A stretch of 64,000 nucleotides of DNA from Sandarakinorhabdus glacialis (GTDB lineage: Bacteria; Pseudomonadota; Alphaproteobacteria; Sphingomonadales; Sphingomonadaceae): assembly GCF_014643455.1 (NCBI RefSeq), contig NZ_BMJM01000007.1:363-64362 (forward strand), given 5' to 3'. Shown in pieces: positions 47,060-58,178 of this stretch (its first letter is position 1; every line of letters starts with the position of its first letter). Under the pieces are notes generated by a model. The model had not been told where the DNA came from and ran no database searches. It worked only from the letters and a program-made list of their open reading frames with translations. Made by a program: the position numbers and the translations under genes.

Positions 47060-49477
47060 GTGACATCCCTCCCCCCCGCGATCGCCGCCTGGTTTACTAG
47101 GCGCGGCTGGTCCCCGCGCCGTCACCAGCTCGAAATGGTCGCCGCCGCCGCTGCCGGCGATCACGCGCTGCTCGTCGCCCCCACCGGCGCCGGCAAGACC
47201 CTCGCCGGCTTCCTCGCCACCCTCGCCGATCTCCACGATCACCCGGTGGACGGCCTCCACACCATCTACGTCAGCCCGCTAAAGGCGCTCGCCGTCGACG
47301 TAAAACGCAACCTGCTCCTTCCGGTGGAGGAAATCGGCCTCGATATCCGCGTCGAAACCCGCACCGGCGACACGCCGTCCGACCGCAAGAAACGCCAGCG
47401 CGAACGCCCGCCGCACATCTTGCTCACCACCCCTGAATCGCTCGCCCTGCTCATCTCCTACCCCGACGCCGCGACGATGCTCGCAGGCGTGAAGACCGTC
47501 ATCGTCGACGAAATTCACGCCTTCGCCACCACCAAGCGCGGCGACCAGCTCGCCCTCGCCCTCTCGCGCCTGCAAAGCCTCGCCCCGGGCCTGCGCCGCG
47601 TCGGCCTCAGCGCCACCATCGCCGACCCCGAAGCTTACCAGGGCTGGCTCGCCCCCGACGCCGATTCCGCCAGCGTCACCCTCGTCACCGGCGATCCCGG
47701 CGCCGATCCCATCGTGGAGATCCTCGTCATCGAGGACCGCATTCCCTGGGCCGGCCACAACGGCCGCTGGGCCGCCCGCGCCGTCATGCGCCGGCTCGAG
47801 GCTTCGCGCCTCGCCATCGTCTTCGTCAACACCCGCGCCGTCGCCGAGCTCGTCTTCCGCGACCTCTGGGCCGAAAACGACCAGGCGCTGCCCATCGGCA
47901 TCCACCACGGCTCGCTCTCGGCCGAAGCCCGGCGCAAGACCGAAAACGCCATGGCCACCGGTCGCCTGCGCGCCATCGTCGCCACCGCCAGCCTCGATCT
48001 GGGCATCGATTGGGGCGATGTCGATCTCGTCGTCCAGATGGGCGCCCCCAAGGGCTCGTCGCGCCTGCTCCAGCGCACCGGCCGCGCCAACCACCGCATG
48101 GACGAGGCCAGCCGCGCCATCGTCGTCCCCGGCAACCGCTTCGAGTATCTTGAATCCCTCGCCGCGCAGGACGCGGTCCGCGAAGGCGAGCTCGACGAAG
48201 ACCGCTTCCGCCCCGGCGGCCTCGATGTCCTCGCCCAGCATGTCGTCGCCTGCGCCGCCGCGGCGCCCTTCATGGCCGACGATCTCTATGCCGAGGTCCG
48301 CACTGCCGCGCCCTATGCGGGCCTGACCCGCGCCCGCTTCGACGAGGTCATCAGCTTCGTCGCCACAGGCGGCTATTCGCTGCGCGCCTATGATCGCTAC
48401 CAGCGGCTGAAGCAGGACAAGTCCGGCGCCTGGCGCCTCACCCACCCCCGCCTCGCGCTCCAGCACCGCCTCAACAGCGGCACCATCGTCGAGGCCGTCA
48501 CCATGAACGTCGTCTTCGGCAAGAACGGCCGCACCGGGCGCCGCTTCGGCCAGGTCGAGGAATGGTTCGGCGGCCAGTTACGCATCGGCGACAGCTTCAT
48601 GTTCGCCGGTCAGACGCTCGAGGTGACCGGTTTCGACGGCCCCGACATCTTCGTCCGCCACGGCCGCGGCGACCCGCGCGTGCCGACCTATGCCGGCGGC
48701 CGCATGCCGCTGTCGACCAACCTCGCCGCGCGCGTCCGCGGGCTGTTCAATACACCCGAACGCTGGTCCGAAATGCCGCCCGACGTCCATGAATGGCTCG
48801 CGATCCAGCAACGCCGCTCGGCGCTCCCCGGGCTCGACGACCTGCTCGTCGAAACCTTCGAACGCGAGGGCCGCTGGTACATGGTCGCCTATGGCTTCGC
48901 CGGCCGCCACGCCCACCAGACCCTCGGCATGCTACTCACCCAGCGCATGGAGGCCGCCGGGCTCGAGCCGCTCGGCTTCGTCGGCAGCGATTACGTCGTC
49001 GCAGTCTGGTCGCTCAAGCAGGTCACCGATCCCAAGCCCTTGTTCTCGCCCGACGTCTTCGAGGAGGAGCTTGCCGAATGGATGGCTGCCTCGCCATTCC
49101 TGCGCCGCGCCTTTCGCGAGGTCGCCATCATCGGCGGCCTCATCGAACGCGCGTTGCCCGGCCAGTACAAGACCGGCAAGCAGATGAGCGTCTCGTCCGA
49201 TCTCATCTACGACGTCCTGCGCCGTCACGAACCCGGCCATCTGTTGTTGACCGCCGCCTGGACCGACGCGCGCAGCAAGCTGACCGACATCGAACGCCTC
49301 GGCGCGCTCCTCGATCTCGCCCAGCGCAACCTGGTGCTCATGGCGCTACCCCGCGTCTCGCCCCTCGCCGTCCCCGTCCTCCTCGAAGCCGGCCGCGAAC
49401 GCGTCGCCGGCGCCGCCGACACGGCGCTCCTCCTCGAAGCCAACGCCCTCGCCGCCGAAGCCATGCGCCTCGACTGA
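47060..49477 (+). CDS. Ligase-associated DNA damage response DEXH-box helicase (Lhr-like)
   Basis: An 805-residue superfamily-2 helicase starting at GTG 47060. Walker A is LLVAPTGAGKTLAG, motif Ia YVSPLKALAVD, the DEIH box VIVDEIHAFATT, motif III LSATIADPE, and motifs V-VI appear in VATASLDLGIDWGDVD and LLQRTGRANHRMDE. The C-terminal part carries the Lhr-core winged-helix and beta-barrel region. This short form is the partner of the exonuclease, ligase and PdeM in the ligase-associated set and moves along DNA using ATP. Divergent from the GFA gene with 88 bases between. Confidence 0.92.
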   Translation: MTSLPPAIAAWFTRRGWSPRRHQLEMVAAAAAGDHALLVAPTGAGKTLAGFLATLADLHDHPVDGLHTIYVSPLKALAVDVKRNLLLPVEEIGLDIRVETRTGDTPSDRKKRQRERPPHILLTTPESLALLISYPDAATMLAGVKTVIVDEIHAFATTKRGDQLALALSRLQSLAPGLRRVGLSATIADPEAYQGWLAPDADSASVTLVTGDPGADPIVEILVIEDRIPWAGHNGRWAARAVMRRLEASRLAIVFVNTRAVAELVFRDLWAENDQALPIGIHHGSLSAEARRKTENAMATGRLRAIVATASLDLGIDWGDVDLVVQMGAPKGSSRLLQRTGRANHRMDEASRAIVVPGNRFEYLESLAAQDAVREGELDEDRFRPGGLDVLAQHVVACAAAAPFMADDLYAEVRTAAPYAGLTRARFDEVISFVATGGYSLRAYDRYQRLKQDKSGAWRLTHPRLALQHRLNSGTIVEAVTMNVVFGKNGRTGRRFGQVEEWFGGQLRIGDSFMFAGQTLEVTGFDGPDIFVRHGRGDPRVPTYAGGRMPLSTNLAARVRGLFNTPERWSEMPPDVHEWLAIQQRRSALPGLDDLLVETFEREGRWYMVAYGFAGRHAHQTLGMLLTQRMEAAGLEPLGFVGSDYVVAVWSLKQVTDPKPLFSPDVFEEELAEWMAASPFLRRAFREVAIIGGLIERALPGQYKTGKQMSVSSDLIYDVLRRHEPGHLLLTAAWTDARSKLTDIERLGALLDLAQRNLVLMALPRVSPLAVPVLLEAGRERVAGAADTALLLEANALAAEAMRLD

Positions 49478-49521
49478 CGAAGCCAAGGCTTCACCTTAAA
49501 ATCACGCCCCCTCTCTAATTT

Positions 49522-49595
49522 CGTCACCCCGGCGAAGGCCGGGGCCCATCTCCGGAATGTCCAGGAGATGGGCCCCGGCCTTCGCCGGGGTGACG
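49522..49595. repeat. Family A repeats as an inverted pair (copies 4 and 5)
   Basis: Copy 49522-49553 is followed 10 bases later by its reverse complement at 49564-49595. The arms are each about 32 bases, so the transcript can form one very long hairpin, in addition to the small hairpin inside each copy. Lies between the helicase and histidine-phosphatase genes. Confidence 0.85.
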
Positions 49596-49718
49596 GGCAG
49601 AGTGTGCAGTATGTGGACGCGCTGCTCGTACCCGGCCCTTCCCCCCTTCACCGCCCCCAATGAACCCCACGCCCCTCCCGGCGTTGATACCCACCAACCG
49701 ACATCACGAAAGCCCAAC

Positions 49719-50468
49719 ATGGCGCAGCGCTGGCCCGCTCACCTCTGGATCGTCCGCCACGGCGAAAGCGCCGGCAACGTCGCCGCCGCCGCCGCCGACG
49801 AGGCCGGCCACCCGCGCATCAAGCTCGACATCCGCGACGCCGACGTCCCGCTCAGCAACCTCGGCGTCGAGCAAGCCGAAGCCGTCGCGCGCTGGTTCGC
49901 CAACCTCGATCGCGGCCCTGAAATCATCCTTGCCTCGCCGTTCCTGCGCGCCCGCGAAACCGCCCGCCTGATCGCCGAGCACAGCAATCCCGCCGAGTCT
50001 CCATTCATCGACGAACGCCTCCGCGAACGCGAATTCGGCATCCTCGATCGCCTCACCCGCCGCGGCGTCGAACAACTCCACCCCGACCAGGCCGCCGCCC
50101 TCAGCGCACTCGGCAAATTCTACCACCGCCCGCCCGGCGGCGAGAGCTGGGTCGACGTCATCCTGCGCCTGCGCGCCTTTGTCGACACCATCAGCCTCCA
50201 CCATGCCGGCGACCGCGTCGTCATCGTCGCCCACCAGGTCGTCGTGCTCTGCTTGCGCTACATCCTCGAATCGTTCGACGAGGCCACCATCCTCGGCATC
50301 GACCGCGCCGGCGACATCGCCAATTGCAGCGTCACCGAATATGATTTTGTCCCCGACGATCGCGGCCGCGTCCGACCGCGGCTACTCACCTATAACTTCG
50401 TGCAACCGCTCGACGTCGCCGCCACCCCGGTAACGACCGCCCCCGACGTCCCGGTCGCCGCCGGATGA
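49719..50468 (+). CDS. Histidine phosphatase family protein
   Basis: A 249-residue phosphatase of the phosphoglycerate-mutase-like superfamily. The catalytic RHG is in WIVRHGESAGN, the second Arg in LASPFLRARETARL, the Glu/Arg region in DERLREREFGILDR, and the second His in VVIVAHQVVVLCLRY. The substrate is unknown: a sugar phosphate, nucleotide or phosphoprotein. The ATG at 49719 was chosen because it begins the fold. Its stop overlaps the nnrD ATG by 4 bases. Confidence 0.87.
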   Translation: MAQRWPAHLWIVRHGESAGNVAAAAADEAGHPRIKLDIRDADVPLSNLGVEQAEAVARWFANLDRGPEIILASPFLRARETARLIAEHSNPAESPFIDERLREREFGILDRLTRRGVEQLHPDQAAALSALGKFYHRPPGGESWVDVILRLRAFVDTISLHHAGDRVVIVAHQVVVLCLRYILESFDEATILGIDRAGDIANCSVTEYDFVPDDRGRVRPRLLTYNFVQPLDVAATPVTTAPDVPVAAG

Positions 50469-51364
50469 GCGATATCAAGCTCAACAAGGCGCTGCTGCGC
50501 TCGCTGCCGCTCCCCGAGCATGGCGGCAACGTCGACAAGGACGCCCGCGGCCGCGCCCTCGCCATCGGCGGTTGCACCGAGATGCCCGGCGCGCTGCTGC
50601 TTTCGGGGGTCGCGGCATTGCGCGCCGGCGCCGGCAAGCTCCAGATGGCAACGTGCGCCTCGGTCGCTCCGATGCTCGCCCTCGCCGTCCCCGAAGCACT
50701 TGTCGTGCAACTAACCGAATGCGACGCCGGCAGCGGTTCGGGCTTCGGCGCCGACAATATCGAGATACTGTGCCGCCGCCTCCCCGCCACCGACGCCATC
50801 CTCGTCGGCCCCGGCCTGGCCGCCGGCGACGCCGCGCACGAATTCACCCGCGCCATCCTCTCGGCCGATCTCGGCGACGCCGGCCTCGTCCTCGATGCCG
50901 CGCCGCTCGCCGCCATCAAGTCGCTACGCCCGCTCCTCCACCAGCGCGGCGGCGCGACCGTCCTGACCCCCCACGCCGGCGAAATGGCCGCCATGCTCGG
51001 CATTAATCGCGACGAAGTCCTCGCCGATCCCGCCGGCATCGCCGCCCGCGCCGCTGCCGACCTCCAGGCCATCATCGTCCTCGAGGGCCCCAACACTGTC
51101 GTCGCTGCCCCCGATGGCCGGCTGTTCCGCTTCGCCGGTGGCGGCGTCGGCCTTGCCACCTTGGGATCGGGCGATACCCTCGCCGGCATCGCGCTCGGCC
51201 TGATGGCGCGCGGCGCCCCGCCACTGTCGGCAGCGATCTGGGCGGTCTATGTCCATGGCAAGGCCGGCAAGCGGCTCGGCAAGCGCATCGGCCGCGTCGG
51301 CTTCCTCGCCCGCGAACTCCTCGCCGAAGTCCCCCGCGTCATCGCCTCGGTCGAGAACGCCTGA
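50465..51364 (+). CDS. nnrD: ADP-dependent NAD(P)H-hydrate dehydratase, stand-alone
   Basis: A 299-residue ribokinase-like repair enzyme that turns damaged NAD(P)H hydrate back into NAD(P)H. Motifs: RALAIGGCTEMPGALLLSG, GPGLAAGD, TVLTPHAGEMAAMLG, IIVLEGPNTVVAAPDG and the catalytic LATLGSGDTLAGIALGL. Many bacteria carry a fused epimerase (YjeF N-terminal) domain; it is absent here, so an NnrE gene should exist elsewhere. Coupled by an ATGA overlap to the histidine phosphatase upstream; the functional link, if any, is not known. Confidence 0.92.
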   Translation: MSDIKLNKALLRSLPLPEHGGNVDKDARGRALAIGGCTEMPGALLLSGVAALRAGAGKLQMATCASVAPMLALAVPEALVVQLTECDAGSGSGFGADNIEILCRRLPATDAILVGPGLAAGDAAHEFTRAILSADLGDAGLVLDAAPLAAIKSLRPLLHQRGGATVLTPHAGEMAAMLGINRDEVLADPAGIAARAAADLQAIIVLEGPNTVVAAPDGRLFRFAGGGVGLATLGSGDTLAGIALGLMARGAPPLSAAIWAVYVHGKAGKRLGKRIGRVGFLARELLAEVPRVIASVENA

Positions 51365-51486
51365 TTGATCCAAAGCCATTGACGCCGCCGCATTTCGCGC
51401 CGAATTGTCGCCCCGACAGTGCCGGTGCAAGCGACCATTCGTGTCGTGACCGGTCCGCCAAAACATCAGCAACCGGGGAAATCGCC

Positions 51487-52740
51487 GTGACCGACATCTT
51501 CAGCCACAATGAAATGAACGACCTGCGCATGTCCGAAAAGGCACGCCCGCTGTTCGACGCGGTCTGCCGCCACATCGCCGAAAACGTCGTCCCGATCACC
51601 GAGGAATTCGAAGCCCTTGGCAAGAACCGCGCCGATCCGTGGAGCTGGGCGCCGGGCCAACTCGAGCTCCTCCAGACCGCCAAGGACAAGGCCAAGGCCT
51701 CGGGCCTGTGGAACTTCTTCCTGCCCAATGCCGCCACCGGCGAAGGCCTCAGCAACCTCGACTACGCCTATATCGCCGCCGAGCTCGGCAAGGCCCCGCT
51801 AGCCTCTGAATCGCTCAATTGCTCGGCCCCTGATACCGGCAACATGGAAGTCCTCGAGCGCGTCGGCACCCACGCCCAGAAGGAACGCTGGCTCGAGCCG
51901 CTGCTCGCCGGTGAAATCCGCTCGGCCTATGCCATGACCGAGCCCGACGTCGCTTCGTCCGACGCCAAGAACATCCGCACCCGCGCCGAGCATATCGCCG
52001 GCGAATGGGTCATCAACGGCGAGAAATTCTACATTTCGGGCGCCGGCGACCCGCGCTGCAAGATCATGATCGTCATGGTCCGCACCTCCGACGACGGCCC
52101 GGCCAGCGGCCAGCAATCGCAGATCCTCGTCCCCATGGACACGCCCGGCGTCAAGATCCTCGGCCCGATGCACGTCTTCGGCGACGCCCATGCGCCGCGC
52201 GGCCACATGCACATCCGCTTCGACAACGTCCGCGTGCCCTATGAAAACATCCTCCTCGGCGAAGGCCGCGGCTTTGAAATCTCGCAGGTCCGCCTCGGGC
52301 CGGGCCGCATCCATCACTGCATGCGGACCATCGGCAAGGCCGAGATCGCGCTCGATTACATGGTCAACCGCGGCAAGTCCCGCGAAGCCTTTGGCCGCTC
52401 GCTGATCATGCTCGGCAAGAACCTCGAGCTCGTCGCCCGCGCCCGCATCGAGATCGAAGCCATGCGCCTGATGGTCCTCAAGGCCGCCAAGGCCATGGAC
52501 GTCCTCGGCAACCGCGAAGCCCGGGTCTGGGTCTCGATGGTCAAGGCGATGGTCCCCGAAAAGACCTGCCAGATCATCGACCAGGCCATCCAGATTCACG
52601 GCGCCGCCGGCATCTCGCAGTGGACCCCGCTGGCCGATCTCTACGCCGACGTCCGCCACCTGCGCTTCGCCGACGGCCCCGACGAAGTCCATCACATGGT
52701 CGTCGGCCGCCACGAACTCGGCCTCCACGGCAACGCCTGA
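51487..52740 (+). CDS. Acyl-CoA dehydrogenase family protein
   Basis: A 417-residue flavoenzyme oxidising acyl-CoA to enoyl-CoA. Visible: YAMTEPDVASSDAKNIRT (FAD and acyl loop), VINGEKFYISGAGDPRCK, the segment GHMHIRFDNVRVPYENILLGEGRGFEI, REAFGRSLIML, and the C-terminal QIHGAAGISQWTPLADLYADVRHLRFADGPDEVH. The pattern resembles the ACAD11-like / long-chain group. Start GTG 51487, with GGGG before it; the upstream frame is unconserved. The gap of 122 bases to nnrD suggests its own transcript. Confidence 0.9.
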   Translation: MTDIFSHNEMNDLRMSEKARPLFDAVCRHIAENVVPITEEFEALGKNRADPWSWAPGQLELLQTAKDKAKASGLWNFFLPNAATGEGLSNLDYAYIAAELGKAPLASESLNCSAPDTGNMEVLERVGTHAQKERWLEPLLAGEIRSAYAMTEPDVASSDAKNIRTRAEHIAGEWVINGEKFYISGAGDPRCKIMIVMVRTSDDGPASGQQSQILVPMDTPGVKILGPMHVFGDAHAPRGHMHIRFDNVRVPYENILLGEGRGFEISQVRLGPGRIHHCMRTIGKAEIALDYMVNRGKSREAFGRSLIMLGKNLELVARARIEIEAMRLMVLKAAKAMDVLGNREARVWVSMVKAMVPEKTCQIIDQAIQIHGAAGISQWTPLADLYADVRHLRFADGPDEVHHMVVGRHELGLHGNA

Positions 52741-52747
52741 ACGAGCA

Positions 52748-52770
52748 GGGCGGGGCCGAAAACCCCGCCC
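52748..52770 (+). terminator. Hairpin after the acyl-CoA dehydrogenase gene
   Basis: Stem GGGCGGGG / CCCCGCCC with a 7-base loop (52756-52762), 8 bases after the stop codon; no clear T-run follows. Confidence 0.6.
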
Positions 52771-52792
52771 AAAGCACTTCGTAAAGCCCTTC

Positions 52793-52819
52793 GTCATGCT
52801 GAACTTGTTTCAGCATCCA
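52793..52819. repeat. Family B repeat, copy 3
   Basis: GTCATGCTGAACTTGTTTCAG... core, differing by one base from the copy at 10814. Confidence 0.8.
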
Positions 52820-52884
52820 CCGCGCCGCCGAGCCCAGTCGCGCCAGCCGAAGCACCGGGCCTTCCGCGCAACCCCTGAACCCCG

Positions 52885-52909
52885 CTCATCCCGAGCGAAG
52901 TCGAGGGAC
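52885..52909. repeat. Family C repeat, copy 2
   Basis: Identical to the copy at 20482-20506; together with the family B copy it fills the gap between the convergent dehydrogenase and histidine kinase genes. Confidence 0.8.
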
Positions 52910-52938
52910 GCCCAACCCGCCGCGCCAAGCGCCTTAAA

Positions 52939-55431
52939 TCACCCCACCCGCGGCAAATAAACGCAGATCTCCGTACCCGCCGAACTCGTCGATGCAATCA
53001 CCGCGGTCCCGCCGCTCTGCTTGGCAAAACCATGGACCTGGCTCAGCCCCAGCCCGGTCCCCTTGCCGACCGCCTTTGTCGTGAAGAACGGGTTGAACGC
53101 CCGCTCGACGACATCGGGCGTCATCCCCGACCCGGTATCGGTGACGCCGACCATCACATAATCCCCTGGCAGCACATCGAGCACCGCCGCCATCGCCGCA
53201 TCGACCGCGACATTCTCCGACCGGATCGCCAGCCGGCCGCCACCCGGCATCGCATCGCGCGCATTCATCGCCAGGTTGAGCACCACGTTCTCGAGCATGC
53301 TGACATCGGTCTCCACCGACCATAGCCCGGCTTCGAGCGTCACCTCGAGTGCCACCGCGTCGCCCACCGATCGCCGCAGGATTTCCGACATGCCGTCGAT
53401 CAACGCGTTGACCTCGACCGGCGCCAGCTCCAGCGGCTTCTGCCGGGCAAAATCCATCAACCGGTCAACAAGCGCTGCCGCCCGCCGCGCGCCGTCGCTG
53501 GCAGCATCGATATAGACTTTTGCCTTGCCCGGATCGCGCACCATTGTGCGCTCGAGGATCGACAGCCCGCTGATGATCACCGTCAGCATATTGTTGAAAT
53601 CATGTGCCAACCCGCTGGTCAGCACGCCGATCGCCTCCATCTTCTGCCTCTGCCGCAAGGCCGCCTCGACGCGTGACCGCCGCGCCAGTTCCGCAGCGAT
53701 ACGGTCCTCCAGCGTGTGGTTGAGCTCCTTCAAGGCGTCCTCGGTCCGGCGCTGCTCGGTGACATCGGTATGCACCCCGACCCATTTGGCCACCGGCTGG
53801 CCACTCTCGCTCGAAAGCGCGCCGGGCCTGGCGCCGGCACCCTCGACGATCGGAATGGCGCAGATCGCAAAACGCCCCCAACTGCCATCGCTGCGTCGTA
53901 CCCGGTGCTCGTGATTGAACCGCCGCTGCTCGTCCACCGCCGCGCGCCATGCCCCCAGCGTTGCCTCTGCGTCGTCCGGATGCACCGCGTCGACCCACCC
54001 ATAGCCCTGGTATTCGGCCTCGCTTTGCCCCGTCAACGCTGCCCAGCCCGGTTGTCGCCCGGTCATCCGGCCCTCGACGTCGTTGGTCCACAAATAGCCC
54101 TGTATCGCCTCCACCGCCGCGCGGAACCGGCCCTCGCTGATGCGTATGCCGTCCTCGGCGCGCTTGCGGTCGTCGATATCGATCACCGACCCGACGAACC
54201 CCACGAACGCCCCGTCGTCGGCAAGACGCGGCGTCGCTGCGTCGATCATCCACCGATACTGCCCGTCCGCACCCTTCACCCGATATTCGATCCGGAACGG
54301 CCCGCGCGCCTTGTTCGCCGTCATGAACACCCGCTCGGCCTCGACCTGCTCGTCGGGATGCACGGCCAGCGTCCACCCCAGGCCGAGCGCGTCGGCCTCC
54401 GACTGCCCGGTATATTCGTACCAGCGCGAATTTAGATAGGTGCAATTGCCGGTCGGGTCGGTCTCCCACATCATTATCGGCGCACTGTCCGCCATGTTGC
54501 GAAACCGCGTGTCGGATTCGCGCAGCGCCCGCTCGGCGACATGTCGCGCCGTCACGTCGCTGCCCTCGCAGAAAATCCCGGTCACGCTGCCATCGGCCCC
54601 GACGATCGGCTCATAGATGAAATTGAGGAACCGCTCTTCGGCTGGCTCCCCCGCCCTCCGCTGCAACACGACCGGCAAATGCTCGGCGACCATCCGCTCG
54701 CCGGTCCGGAACACCTGCTGCAGCCGCTCGATGAACCCTTGCTCGATCAGCTCCGGAATCGCCTCGCGCACCGGCTGGCCGATGATCTCGCTGCGCCCGA
54801 CCAGTTCGCGAAACGCGGCGTTGGCGACCTCGAAGACATGCTCCGGCCCTGTCATCACGCACATAAAGCCCGGTGCCTGGTCGAACAGCGCCTGCAATCG
54901 GTCGATCACCCGCGCCTGCTCATGGCCCGCCTGCATCTGCGCCGTCGTCTCGGTGACCAGCACCAGCACGCCGCCCACTCCCGCCGGCGCCGTGTCGTCG
55001 TCGATCGGGCCGTAGCTATAGGTCCAGAAAACGTCCTGCAGGCTGCCGTGGCGAAAGATCGGCAGCCGCTGGTTCTCGTACCACGTCGCGCCCTGTGCCG
55101 ACATCACCGTCTCGATCTGCGGCCCGATGGCGTGCCAGACCTCCTGCCACACCAGCGCCCCCTCCTCGCCCAGCATCGCCGGATGCTTTTCGGGCCCCAG
55201 CGACCGTGCATAGGAATCATTGTAGAAACACCAGCTGTCTGCGCCCCAGAAAACGAACACCGGGTGCTGCGTCGTCAGCATGATCCGCACCGACAGCTTG
55301 AGCGCCTGCGGCCATCCCGACGGCTCCCCCAGCGGATGCGCCGCCCAATCGAAGGCACGGATCCGCCGCGCCATTTCGCCGTCGCCCGCCAGGAACCGCA
55401 ACGCCGCCGGCAATCGCATCGGCGCACTCAT
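52939..55431 (-). CDS. Multi-PAS sensor histidine kinase
   Basis: An 830-residue kinase without membrane segments. Four PAS-like units can be made out: about 40-170 (VFWGADSWCFYNDSYA), 175-300 (FEVANAAFRELVGRS), 305-430 (TYLNSRWYEYTGQSEADALG) and 435-565. A coiled-coil linker leads to the phospho-acceptor His near residue 607 in LAHDFNNMLTVI, then the ATPase domain with LNLAMNARDAM, TDTGSGMTPDV, FNPFFTTKAVGKGTGLGLSQV. No receiver domain is fused at the end. It overlaps the response-regulator gene by ATGA and so is coupled to it and to the KaiC-like gene. Cytoplasmic sensing of redox, light or ligand is likely, but no cofactor-binding Cys or His is obvious. Confidence 0.9.
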   Translation of the reverse strand: MSAPMRLPAALRFLAGDGEMARRIRAFDWAAHPLGEPSGWPQALKLSVRIMLTTQHPVFVFWGADSWCFYNDSYARSLGPEKHPAMLGEEGALVWQEVWHAIGPQIETVMSAQGATWYENQRLPIFRHGSLQDVFWTYSYGPIDDDTAPAGVGGVLVLVTETTAQMQAGHEQARVIDRLQALFDQAPGFMCVMTGPEHVFEVANAAFRELVGRSEIIGQPVREAIPELIEQGFIERLQQVFRTGERMVAEHLPVVLQRRAGEPAEERFLNFIYEPIVGADGSVTGIFCEGSDVTARHVAERALRESDTRFRNMADSAPIMMWETDPTGNCTYLNSRWYEYTGQSEADALGLGWTLAVHPDEQVEAERVFMTANKARGPFRIEYRVKGADGQYRWMIDAATPRLADDGAFVGFVGSVIDIDDRKRAEDGIRISEGRFRAAVEAIQGYLWTNDVEGRMTGRQPGWAALTGQSEAEYQGYGWVDAVHPDDAEATLGAWRAAVDEQRRFNHEHRVRRSDGSWGRFAICAIPIVEGAGARPGALSSESGQPVAKWVGVHTDVTEQRRTEDALKELNHTLEDRIAAELARRSRVEAALRQRQKMEAIGVLTSGLAHDFNNMLTVIISGLSILERTMVRDPGKAKVYIDAASDGARRAAALVDRLMDFARQKPLELAPVEVNALIDGMSEILRRSVGDAVALEVTLEAGLWSVETDVSMLENVVLNLAMNARDAMPGGGRLAIRSENVAVDAAMAAVLDVLPGDYVMVGVTDTGSGMTPDVVERAFNPFFTTKAVGKGTGLGLSQVHGFAKQSGGTAVIASTSSAGTEICVYLPRVG

Positions 55432-55787
55432 CGCACGATCAGACTGTTGGCGAGATCGACCAGCGCATAGATATTGAACGGCTTGCGCACGAACGCCGTG
55501 AATGCCGCGCCCTTCGCCACCACGACACCCTCGGGCATCGAACTCATCATCACCAGCGGCACGCCTGCCAGCCTGGGCTCGGCCGCCAGCGCCGCCGCCA
55601 ATTCCGCCCCGTCCATCACCGGCATCATCAGGTCGGTCAGGATGATTGCCGGCACGGTCGTCAACGCCAGTTCGAGCGCCTGCCGGCCGTTCGACGCCAG
55701 CATCACCTCGTGCCCGTCATCAACGAACACATCCTCGAGCAGCCTGGCAATGCCGACCTCGTCGTCGACGACGAGAATGATAGCCAT
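55428..55787 (-). CDS. Single-domain response regulator
   Basis: A 119-residue receiver domain only: acidic pair in ILVVDDEVGIA, phospho-acceptor Asp52 in ILTDLMMPVMDG, Thr/Ser switch in VMMSSMP, and Lys in FVRKPFN. No output domain, so it works by protein contact or as a phosphate relay. Its ATG shares a base with the TAA of the KaiC-like gene (TAATG), and its stop overlaps the kinase start: all three genes are translationally coupled. Its likely kinase is the one downstream. Confidence 0.92.
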   Translation of the reverse strand: MAIILVVDDEVGIARLLEDVFVDDGHEVMLASNGRQALELALTTVPAIILTDLMMPVMDGAELAAALAAEPRLAGVPLVMMSSMPEGVVVAKGAAFTAFVRKPFNIYALVDLANSLIVR

Positions 55788-57307
55788 TACCCCCGCCCCC
55801 CGTCACCGCGCCCCAGCCCGCTTCGCCCGCGCCCCGGCCCGCTTCGCCCGCGCTCAGTCGGCGCCACATCGACCATCAACCCGACGCCATCGGCCCCCAT
55901 GGTAAAGACATATTCCTCCGGGTCATAACCGCTGCTGCGCACCTTGAGCAGCGACAGCACGCGGTGGGTGTCGCCATCGATGCGGCGATACCGCATGACG
56001 ATGATATTTTCGGACAGCCGCGACAGGTCCTCGACCGGCAGCTCGCCCAGTCGCCCGTACAATCGCGGCGTCTCGAGGCTATAGACGATCGTCGCTCCCA
56101 GCCGCTGCAACTGGATCGCCAACGCCGTGAAAAACCCGGGGAACCGGTGTTCGTCGACCGCCGCCGCCCGGAATGCCAGGTAACCGTCGATGAACACCCG
56201 CTTGAACCCGCGCCGCTCGACCGCCTCGAGGATCTGGCTGCCCAGCGTGTCGAGCGCCAGTTCCTCCGAATGCTGCCACATGATCTCGACCGCGCCGCTT
56301 GCCAGCAGCCCGCGCAGGTCGATCCCCAAATTGTCGGCCTTGTCGACCAACCCGTCCGGCCGTTCGTAGAACCCGACCAGCAACCCCGGCGCCGCCGGCA
56401 CCGACCGGCTGAGAAAATGCAGGCCCGTGCTGGTCTTGCCGATGCCCGATGGACCCACCAGCGCCGTCGTCGACAACACCGGCAGCCCGCCCTCGAGCAT
56501 CACGTCGAGATCGTCGATCCCGGTCGGCAGCCGCGCCTTCAGCATTTCCGGCTGCACCCCCCGGCTGACCAGGAATTCCATCCGCGGATACGCCGAGATC
56601 CCGGCGTCGGTGATCTCATAGGTGTGCCGCCCGCGCATGAAACCGCTGCCCCGGAACTTGCGCACCTGCAAGCTGCTCTCCGATCGCCAGCCATAGACGG
56701 CGTCGGTCAGCGTGATCAGCCCGTCGACCATGGTCTGCTCGGGCGACATCCGGTCCACCGTGTTGGTCGTCAGGATCATCGTGCAATCCGTCGCCAGCGC
56801 GATCTCCTGCAAATCATGGACGAACATCTTGAAATCCTGGTCGCCGCCGGTCCCGCCATGCGACGAAGAATGCGCCTCGATCTGCATCGATGCCTGCGCC
56901 GAAACCAGCCCGTCGATGACCAGCAGCGTCGCCCGCTGCTTGATCACTTCCCGCCGCAACAGCGTAAGCAGCCCGGCAAGCCCGTCGCCGCTGATCTCCG
57001 AATATGCGCTCAGATACCGCACCTGCTCGGGCACCAGTCCGGCATTGTAAAATGCCAGCCCGGCAATACTGGCGATCATCCGCGCATGGTTCTCCGCCAG
57101 CAACGTCACGAAGATCGCCTTGCCGCCCGTCCCCGCGTGGTGAAAGCAGATCTGGTTCGACATGATGGTCTTGCCGGCCCCCGGCGCACCTTCGATGATA
57201 TAGATATTGCCCAGCATCAGGCCGCCGCCAAGGATCGTATCGAGGCCCGCAATGCCGCTGGTGATACGCCGCAATTTCGGCCGGGAACTCTCTACGCTAT
57301 CAACCAT
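55787..57307 (-). CDS. Double-domain KaiC-like circadian-clock-type ATPase
   Basis: A 506-residue protein with two RecA-like KaiC domains. CI: ITSGIAGLDTILGGGL, Walker A GAPGAGKT at residues 40-47, LLVIDGLVSAQA as Walker B. CII: LPTGIDDLDVMLEGGL, Walker A GPSGIGKT at 285-292, VFIDGYLAFRAAA as Walker B. The paired catalytic Glu residues of cyanobacterial KaiC are changed: LLAEN in CI and FYERP in CII. Family members control timing, redox or stress signalling through ATPase activity and phosphorylation. The C-terminal tail has a GRSGPGR/GRSGLGR tandem repeat encoded by a 21-base duplication. No KaiA or KaiB gene is adjacent. The ATG at 57307 fits the family start; 205 bases separate it from divergent pdeM. 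Confidence 0.9.
   Translation of the reverse strand: MVDSVESSRPKLRRITSGIAGLDTILGGGLMLGNIYIIEGAPGAGKTIMSNQICFHHAGTGGKAIFVTLLAENHARMIASIAGLAFYNAGLVPEQVRYLSAYSEISGDGLAGLLTLLRREVIKQRATLLVIDGLVSAQASMQIEAHSSSHGGTGGDQDFKMFVHDLQEIALATDCTMILTTNTVDRMSPEQTMVDGLITLTDAVYGWRSESSLQVRKFRGSGFMRGRHTYEITDAGISAYPRMEFLVSRGVQPEMLKARLPTGIDDLDVMLEGGLPVLSTTALVGPSGIGKTSTGLHFLSRSVPAAPGLLVGFYERPDGLVDKADNLGIDLRGLLASGAVEIMWQHSEELALDTLGSQILEAVERRGFKRVFIDGYLAFRAAAVDEHRFPGFFTALAIQLQRLGATIVYSLETPRLYGRLGELPVEDLSRLSENIIVMRYRRIDGDTHRVLSLLKVRSSGYDPEEYVFTMGADGVGLMVDVAPTERGRSGPGRGRSGLGRGDGGRG
55808..55849. repeat. 21-base tandem repeat in the KaiC-like gene tail
   Basis: GCGCCCCAGCCCGCTTCGCCC is followed by a second unit with one change (A to G). 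It encodes seven residues twice in the protein's C-terminal tail. Confidence 0.85.
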
Positions 57308-57512
57308 CGCGACCTCGTTACTCGGCGCGGCACCCCGGCAGCTAAATTTGCAGCTACCACTGCGGCACCGATACGCGCACCTTTTCCTGCAACCCTCCAT
57401 GCCGCAAAGCGCGAGCCGATGCGAGAGCCGAAAGCCCATGGCGAAACCGCATTCTCCAAAATTTGCACAGTCGCTTGCTACGACGACCCACGATGCCCCA
57501 TAGGGCCCGGCA

Positions 57513-58178
57513 ATGTCTGTTTCCCTTTCGTTCGCCGGCGAATCGCTCCGCCCCCAACCTTGCGGCGCGCTGCACTGGCCGGCGTTCGACACGCTGTTCG
57601 TCGCCGACCTGCATTTTGAAAAGGCCAGCGCCTTTGCCCGCTTCGGCCGGCTGCTGCCGCCGCACGACAGCGCCGACACCCTCGCCTGCCTGATCGACGC
57701 GCTCGAGGCCACCGGCGCCCGCCGAATCGTCTGCCTCGGCGACAGTTTCCACGATCGCGGCGGCCCCGATCGCCTTCCGGCCGGACCGCGCGCCGCAATC
57801 AAGTCGCTCACCGCAAGCCTCGACTGGCTATGGATCACCGGCAATCACGATGAAGCCGCCGCCGCATCGCTCGGCGGCCGCGTCATGACCGAGGCGCGCA
57901 TCGGCCCGCTCACCCTCCGCCACGAAGCCGTCCCCGGCGACCCCGCGCCTGAACTGTCGGGCCATTTCCATCCCAAGGTCGCTGTCCACATCCGTGGTCG
58001 CCGCATCGTCCGCCGCTGCTTCGCCGTCTCCGCCACCAAGATCATCCTGCCCGCCTACGGCGCCTTCACCGGCGGCCTCGATGTTGCCGACCCGGCAATC
58101 ACCAGCGTCATGGACGGCCCCGTCATGGCCTATGTCCAGGAAGGCCACCACCTCCTCCGCTTCCCGATCGCCGCCTGA
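57513..58178 (+). CDS. pdeM: Ligase-associated DNA damage response endonuclease PdeM
   Basis: A 221-residue calcineurin-like phosphoesterase. Metal motifs in order: VADLHFEKA, CLGDSFHDRGG, WITGNHDEAA, LSGHFHPKV; LPAYGAFTGGLDV is typical of PdeM. Members are Mn-dependent nucleases/phosphodiesterases genetically linked to an ATP-dependent ligase, an exonuclease and an Lhr-like helicase. Here it is separated from the latter two by about 8-11 kb and divergent from the KaiC operon. Cytoplasmic. Confidence 0.88.
   Translation: MSVSLSFAGESLRPQPCGALHWPAFDTLFVADLHFEKASAFARFGRLLPPHDSADTLACLIDALEATGARRIVCLGDSFHDRGGPDRLPAGPRAAIKSLTASLDWLWITGNHDEAAAASLGGRVMTEARIGPLTLRHEAVPGDPAPELSGHFHPKVAVHIRGRRIVRRCFAVSATKIILPAYGAFTGGLDVADPAITSVMDGPVMAYVQEGHHLLRFPIAA

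Follow-up and report, generated by a model that had tools for sequence, protein, structure and literature searches.

A KaiC-like ATPase paired with a single-domain receiver, and an apparently exchanged PAS kinase, in Sandarakinorhabdus glacialis

Introduction

Many KaiC proteins outside the cyanobacteria have no known partner or output. In the sections considered here, De Luca et al. 2011 (PMC3164672) describe a "third kaiC context" in which a single receiver gene often comes after kaiC, at most one phosphosite is usually retained and signalling genes lie nearby; the kaiC-then-receiver arrangement as such is already known from that work. KaiC proteins of this kind are regarded there as probably unable to sustain cyclic timing. 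For Pseudomonas, the considered part of PMC11832031 cites Terrettaz et al. 2023 for roles of KaiC-like proteins in stress resistance and biofilm, with no circadian evidence, and an excerpt of PMC5847659 reports KaiC-REC fusions in archaea (Methanosarcinaceae). Within the partial literature covered, we found no prior description of the strict pairing, the sensor-less upstream kinase or the apparent kinase swap presented below.

Gene organization of the locus

The window, by which we mean the whole stretch of 64,000 nucleotides that was analysed, contains the three overlapping genes announced in the preliminary description, all on the minus strand. They encode a KaiC-like double-domain ATPase of 506 aa (P0001, 55787..57307), a single-domain receiver (response regulator) of 119 aa (P0002, 55428..55787; PF00072, 64 bits) and a soluble PAS-rich histidine kinase of 830 aa (P0003, 52939..55431), recognised by its PAS, HisKA and HATPase_c domains and its motifs. 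Read from the sequence, the KaiC-like/receiver junction is TAATG with one shared base and the receiver/kinase junction is ATGA with four. Synthesis in fixed proportion had been concluded from these overlaps; the overlaps stand, and they imply coupled translation only. The KaiC-like gene starts with ATG downstream of a GAGG motif, 205 bp from the divergent pdeM. Promoter and terminator predictions were at about chance level.

An lhr-type helicase gene and pdeM lie 8 kb apart here, with the operon between them (window 47060-58178). Since the two genes adjoin in the related locus L116 and are separated by 1.7-2.4 kb in L114 and L117, an insertion of the operon between lhr and pdeM is suggested. 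A clean empty site was sought in the relatives and not obtained, the acyl-CoA dehydrogenase flank being non-syntenic, and base composition gave no foreign signature of recent transfer.

The KaiC-like ATPase

Two ATPase domains with Walker A loops had been proposed, and both were recovered by Pfam (PF06745 twice, score 170 bits). All 82 homologues among the matches listed share the Walker A Lys/Thr and the Walker B Asp without exception. The catalytic Glu pairs had been called altered, which is correct insofar as one Glu of each pair is replaced; the other survives (E72 and E315), and it is likewise invariant in all 82 listed homologues. With all these residues invariant, the altered pairs are, as far as the alignment tells, a family signature and not a loss of catalysis. 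With two RecA-like domains, Walker A and B motifs and a Glu in each domain, the protein has the predicted features of a KaiC family ATPase.

This is in agreement with the AlphaFold2 model (pLDDT 87, pTM 0.85), whose best PDB matches are all KaiC over the whole chain, with TM scores of 0.73-0.80. By analogy with the KaiC family we infer that the ATPase may be hexameric. A 21-bp tandem repeat detected by TRF (55806..55853, minus strand) encodes an Arg/Gly-rich C-terminal tail which, with a pLDDT below 50, is probably disordered.

The question of a clock

Profile searches of the 3.3-Mb genome returned no match for KaiB (PF07689) or KaiA (PF07688), while the Synechococcus control was found, so that the earlier statement that neither gene is near holds genome-wide. 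At the positions equivalent to the clock phosphosites T426, S431 and T432 the window protein carries P424, S429 and R430; two of the three are gone. Among the matches listed, 76 of 82 homologues retain a Ser equivalent to S431, and the T432 position, Arg in the window, is usually Ser. The models for circadian KaiC score far below their cut-offs (TIGR02655, an equivalog, 110 bits against 546; NF006799, 150 against 408). The negative genome-wide search for KaiA and KaiB and the loss of two of three phosphosites make a clock unlikely. A circadian or hourglass timer that dispenses with KaiA and KaiB could draw on the KaiC fold of the predicted structure and on the widely kept Ser; the missing kai genes, the Pro and Arg at the T426 and T432 positions and the doubt expressed in the considered sections of PMC3164672 make us regard such a timer as very improbable.

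The preliminary description had further suggested light or redox timing. Pfam finds no PHY domain in the PAS kinase, and there is no LOV-type motif around any of its six Cys; together with the lack of KaiA and KaiB and the S431-R432 phosphosite pattern, this leaves light, redox and circadian roles with no positive support.

The KaiC-receiver pair

A scan of 85,000 genomes yielded 416 KaiC relatives. The best 80 of these 416, the window and other matches make up a set of 83 distinct loci, spanning Alpha-, Beta- and Gammaproteobacteria and Myxococcota (two phyla, at least 28 genera); with 27 of the 83 coming from Pseudomonas, the loci cannot be counted as 83 independent cases. Immediately downstream of KaiC and on the same strand, all 83 loci (best 80 of 416 plus others) have a single-domain receiver gene, at a distance of -4 to +67 nt and with nothing in between. 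Drawing on the best 80 of 416 relatives, this count leaves room for more distant KaiCs without a receiver. The trees of KaiC and receiver correlate with r = 0.80, shuffles reaching at most 0.22 (44 rows, below 80% identity), a congruence that shared ancestry alone can also yield. The proposed link between KaiC and receiver is strongly supported by this constancy and by the congruent trees, and as judged from gene content the conserved unit is the pair and not the triad. In a metagenome locus (L037, 5983-7446) an in-frame stop splits KaiC into two halves, with the receiver still present.

The window receiver has the residues expected for phosphorylation, namely D8, D9 and E10, the putative phospho-acceptor D52, S82 and K102; D9, E10, D52 and K102 are invariant in 82 homologues among the matches listed. 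This combination of acidic pair, Asp, Ser/Thr and Lys predicts a phosphorylatable receiver of the CheY type. A model of a KaiC-receiver read-through fusion from Asticcacaulis (14 alignment rows) gave a pTM of 0.69, and its placement of the receiver is not confident. Because the receiver has no output domain, never leaves KaiC in the loci seen and coexists with varying kinases, it is best read as a part of the KaiC machine.

We therefore propose, and hold to be about evenly balanced between right and wrong, that KaiC may act as a nucleotide-driven hub with a dedicated receiver, and that an exchangeable kinase, in the window the PAS kinase, would phosphorylate this receiver. The core would be a module of two proteins, a KaiC-type ATPase ring and its single-domain receiver. 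A kinase linked to the module would load phosphate on D52, and the receiver, having no output domain, would act through the ring by docking when phosphorylated; alternatively the ring may hold or release the receiver according to its nucleotide state. Binding between KaiC and receiver, phosphotransfer from the kinase and the direction of the signal are what we infer here. A more far-reaching version, which we offer as tentative, is that the receiver could serve the KaiC ring as a regulatory subunit gated by phosphorylation, which would be a mode of control without KaiB. Kinases could then be exchanged around it by shedding the receiver they carry and relying on the one bound to KaiC.

The kinases

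The kinase genes neighbouring the pair differ greatly from one listed locus to another. In 29 of them a kinase of 186-365 aa lies directly upstream of KaiC, mostly overlapping it or within 40 nt; the shortest (186 aa) has probably been truncated in gene calling. For the kinase of locus L023, Pfam finds HisKA and HATPase_c alone behind a short N-terminus, so there is no recognised sensor, and kinases of this short, sensor-less kind precede KaiC in the six nearest relatives of the window. The window KaiC groups with these six short-kinase loci with a support of 100, and then with L023, L024 and L025 with 96; the window receiver groups independently with the latter three in its own tree. No ortholog of the short kinase was found in the whole window genome, the best match having 33% identity versus 58% between orthologs. 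On this pattern of presence and absence, the short upstream kinase appears to have been replaced by the PAS kinase in the window. Of all subfamily members, the window KaiC has the longest terminal branch (0.94 in one tree, 0.88 in another), which would fit a changed constraint after a partner swap.

The short kinase of the nearest relatives, without a recognised sensor, must be fed by something else, and its tree correlates with that of KaiC (r = 0.69). KaiC might thus be the input, as it is to SasA, sensing nucleotide state and switching the kinase, with the receiver signalling to targets elsewhere. We consider this possible and somewhat doubtful: no neighbouring kinase was detected in 40 of the 82 listed loci, which still keep KaiC and receiver together, the window kinase has PAS sensors of its own, and Pfam finds no SasA-like KaiB fold in it.

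Under the hub model the place of the short kinase, absent from the window genome, would have been taken by a PAS-sensing kinase that has no receiver of its own and now would serve as phosphate donor. P0003 has an HDFNN H-box at 610, an N-box at 719, G1 at 765 and G2 at 791, and no attached receiver. Five relatives from the same bacterial family, four aligned fully and one in two pieces, are hybrid kinases that carry a receiver at the C-terminus. Phosphorylation of P0002 by P0003 is plausible, since the residues are intact, the genes overlap and the kinase lacks the receiver of its relatives. P0003, whose gene lies downstream of the receiver gene, matches no kinase adjoining any other listed locus in full, and as an ortholog of the short upstream kinase it was rejected (26-28% identity). 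With no comparator locus, its link to the module rests on the overlap and on the missing receiver. The triad of the preliminary description comes apart at this gene, as among the related loci listed the window alone has the PAS kinase, the others having the different short upstream kinase or none. Separate occurrence in most relatives, which that description had named as grounds for refutation, is thus what is seen for the PAS kinase. This and the variety of kinases near the pair would also suit a mere co-transcribed neighbour, with other kinases serving the receiver and KaiC-receiver working without P0003; the four-base overlap and the absent receiver argue against it, and we think it unlikely.

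Other arrangements were observed as well. In L079 the H-box His of the upstream kinase is replaced (SISRELRN), so that it is likely a pseudokinase, and it still adjoins the pair. In a locus of Pseudomonas dryadis (L101, 5995-11546) the consecutive genes are kinase, KaiC and receiver, then another KaiC and another kinase, and L065 and L068 each have two KaiC genes close together.

Distribution

The KaiC subfamily is sparse. It occurs in 3 of 248 genomes of the order and 4 of 385 of the class, the window included in both counts, and in none of the 23 other species of the genus. Conservation of the triad across Sphingomonadales, a check the preliminary description had called for, was rejected on these numbers. 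The hit in a fourth genome of the order (G244) and the second KaiC of the window genome belong to another KaiC subfamily. This second system, on another contig (L007, G000:C29, 335-4072, minus strand), comprises a KaiC-like ATPase, a PAS-HWE kinase and a 137-aa protein for which Pfam gives no match; a KaiC-kinase-receiver set in L016 appears to resemble it.

Comparison with known systems

A receiver at every locus examined (best 80 of 416 plus others) offers a specific and testable partner for one KaiC subfamily, and the exchangeable kinase amounts to a natural kinase-swap experiment. If gating by the receiver is true, it would be a KaiB-free mode of control for a widespread KaiC subfamily.

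In gene order and phosphosites the window falls into the third kaiC context of PMC3164672, with kaiC then a single receiver and at most one phosphosite, and it shares the signalling neighbours. Here, in contrast, the pair is constant within one defined subfamily (best 80 of 416 plus others), and one clade has a sensor-less upstream kinase in whose stead the window has the PAS kinase. The KaiC-like proteins of environmental Pseudomonas cited in PMC11832031 come from a genus in which the pair is common. Cyanobacterial KaiC with SasA-RpaA has the same double RecA-like fold and a two-component partner, whereas here KaiA and KaiB were not found, T426 and T432 are lost, the receiver has no DNA-binding domain and no KaiB-like domain was detected in the kinase. 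The archaeal KaiC-REC fusions, as excerpted from PMC5847659, likewise wire a receiver to a KaiC-family ATPase, in a single polypeptide and a different lineage, whereas here the genes are separate; they count in favour of the KaiC-receiver hub model.
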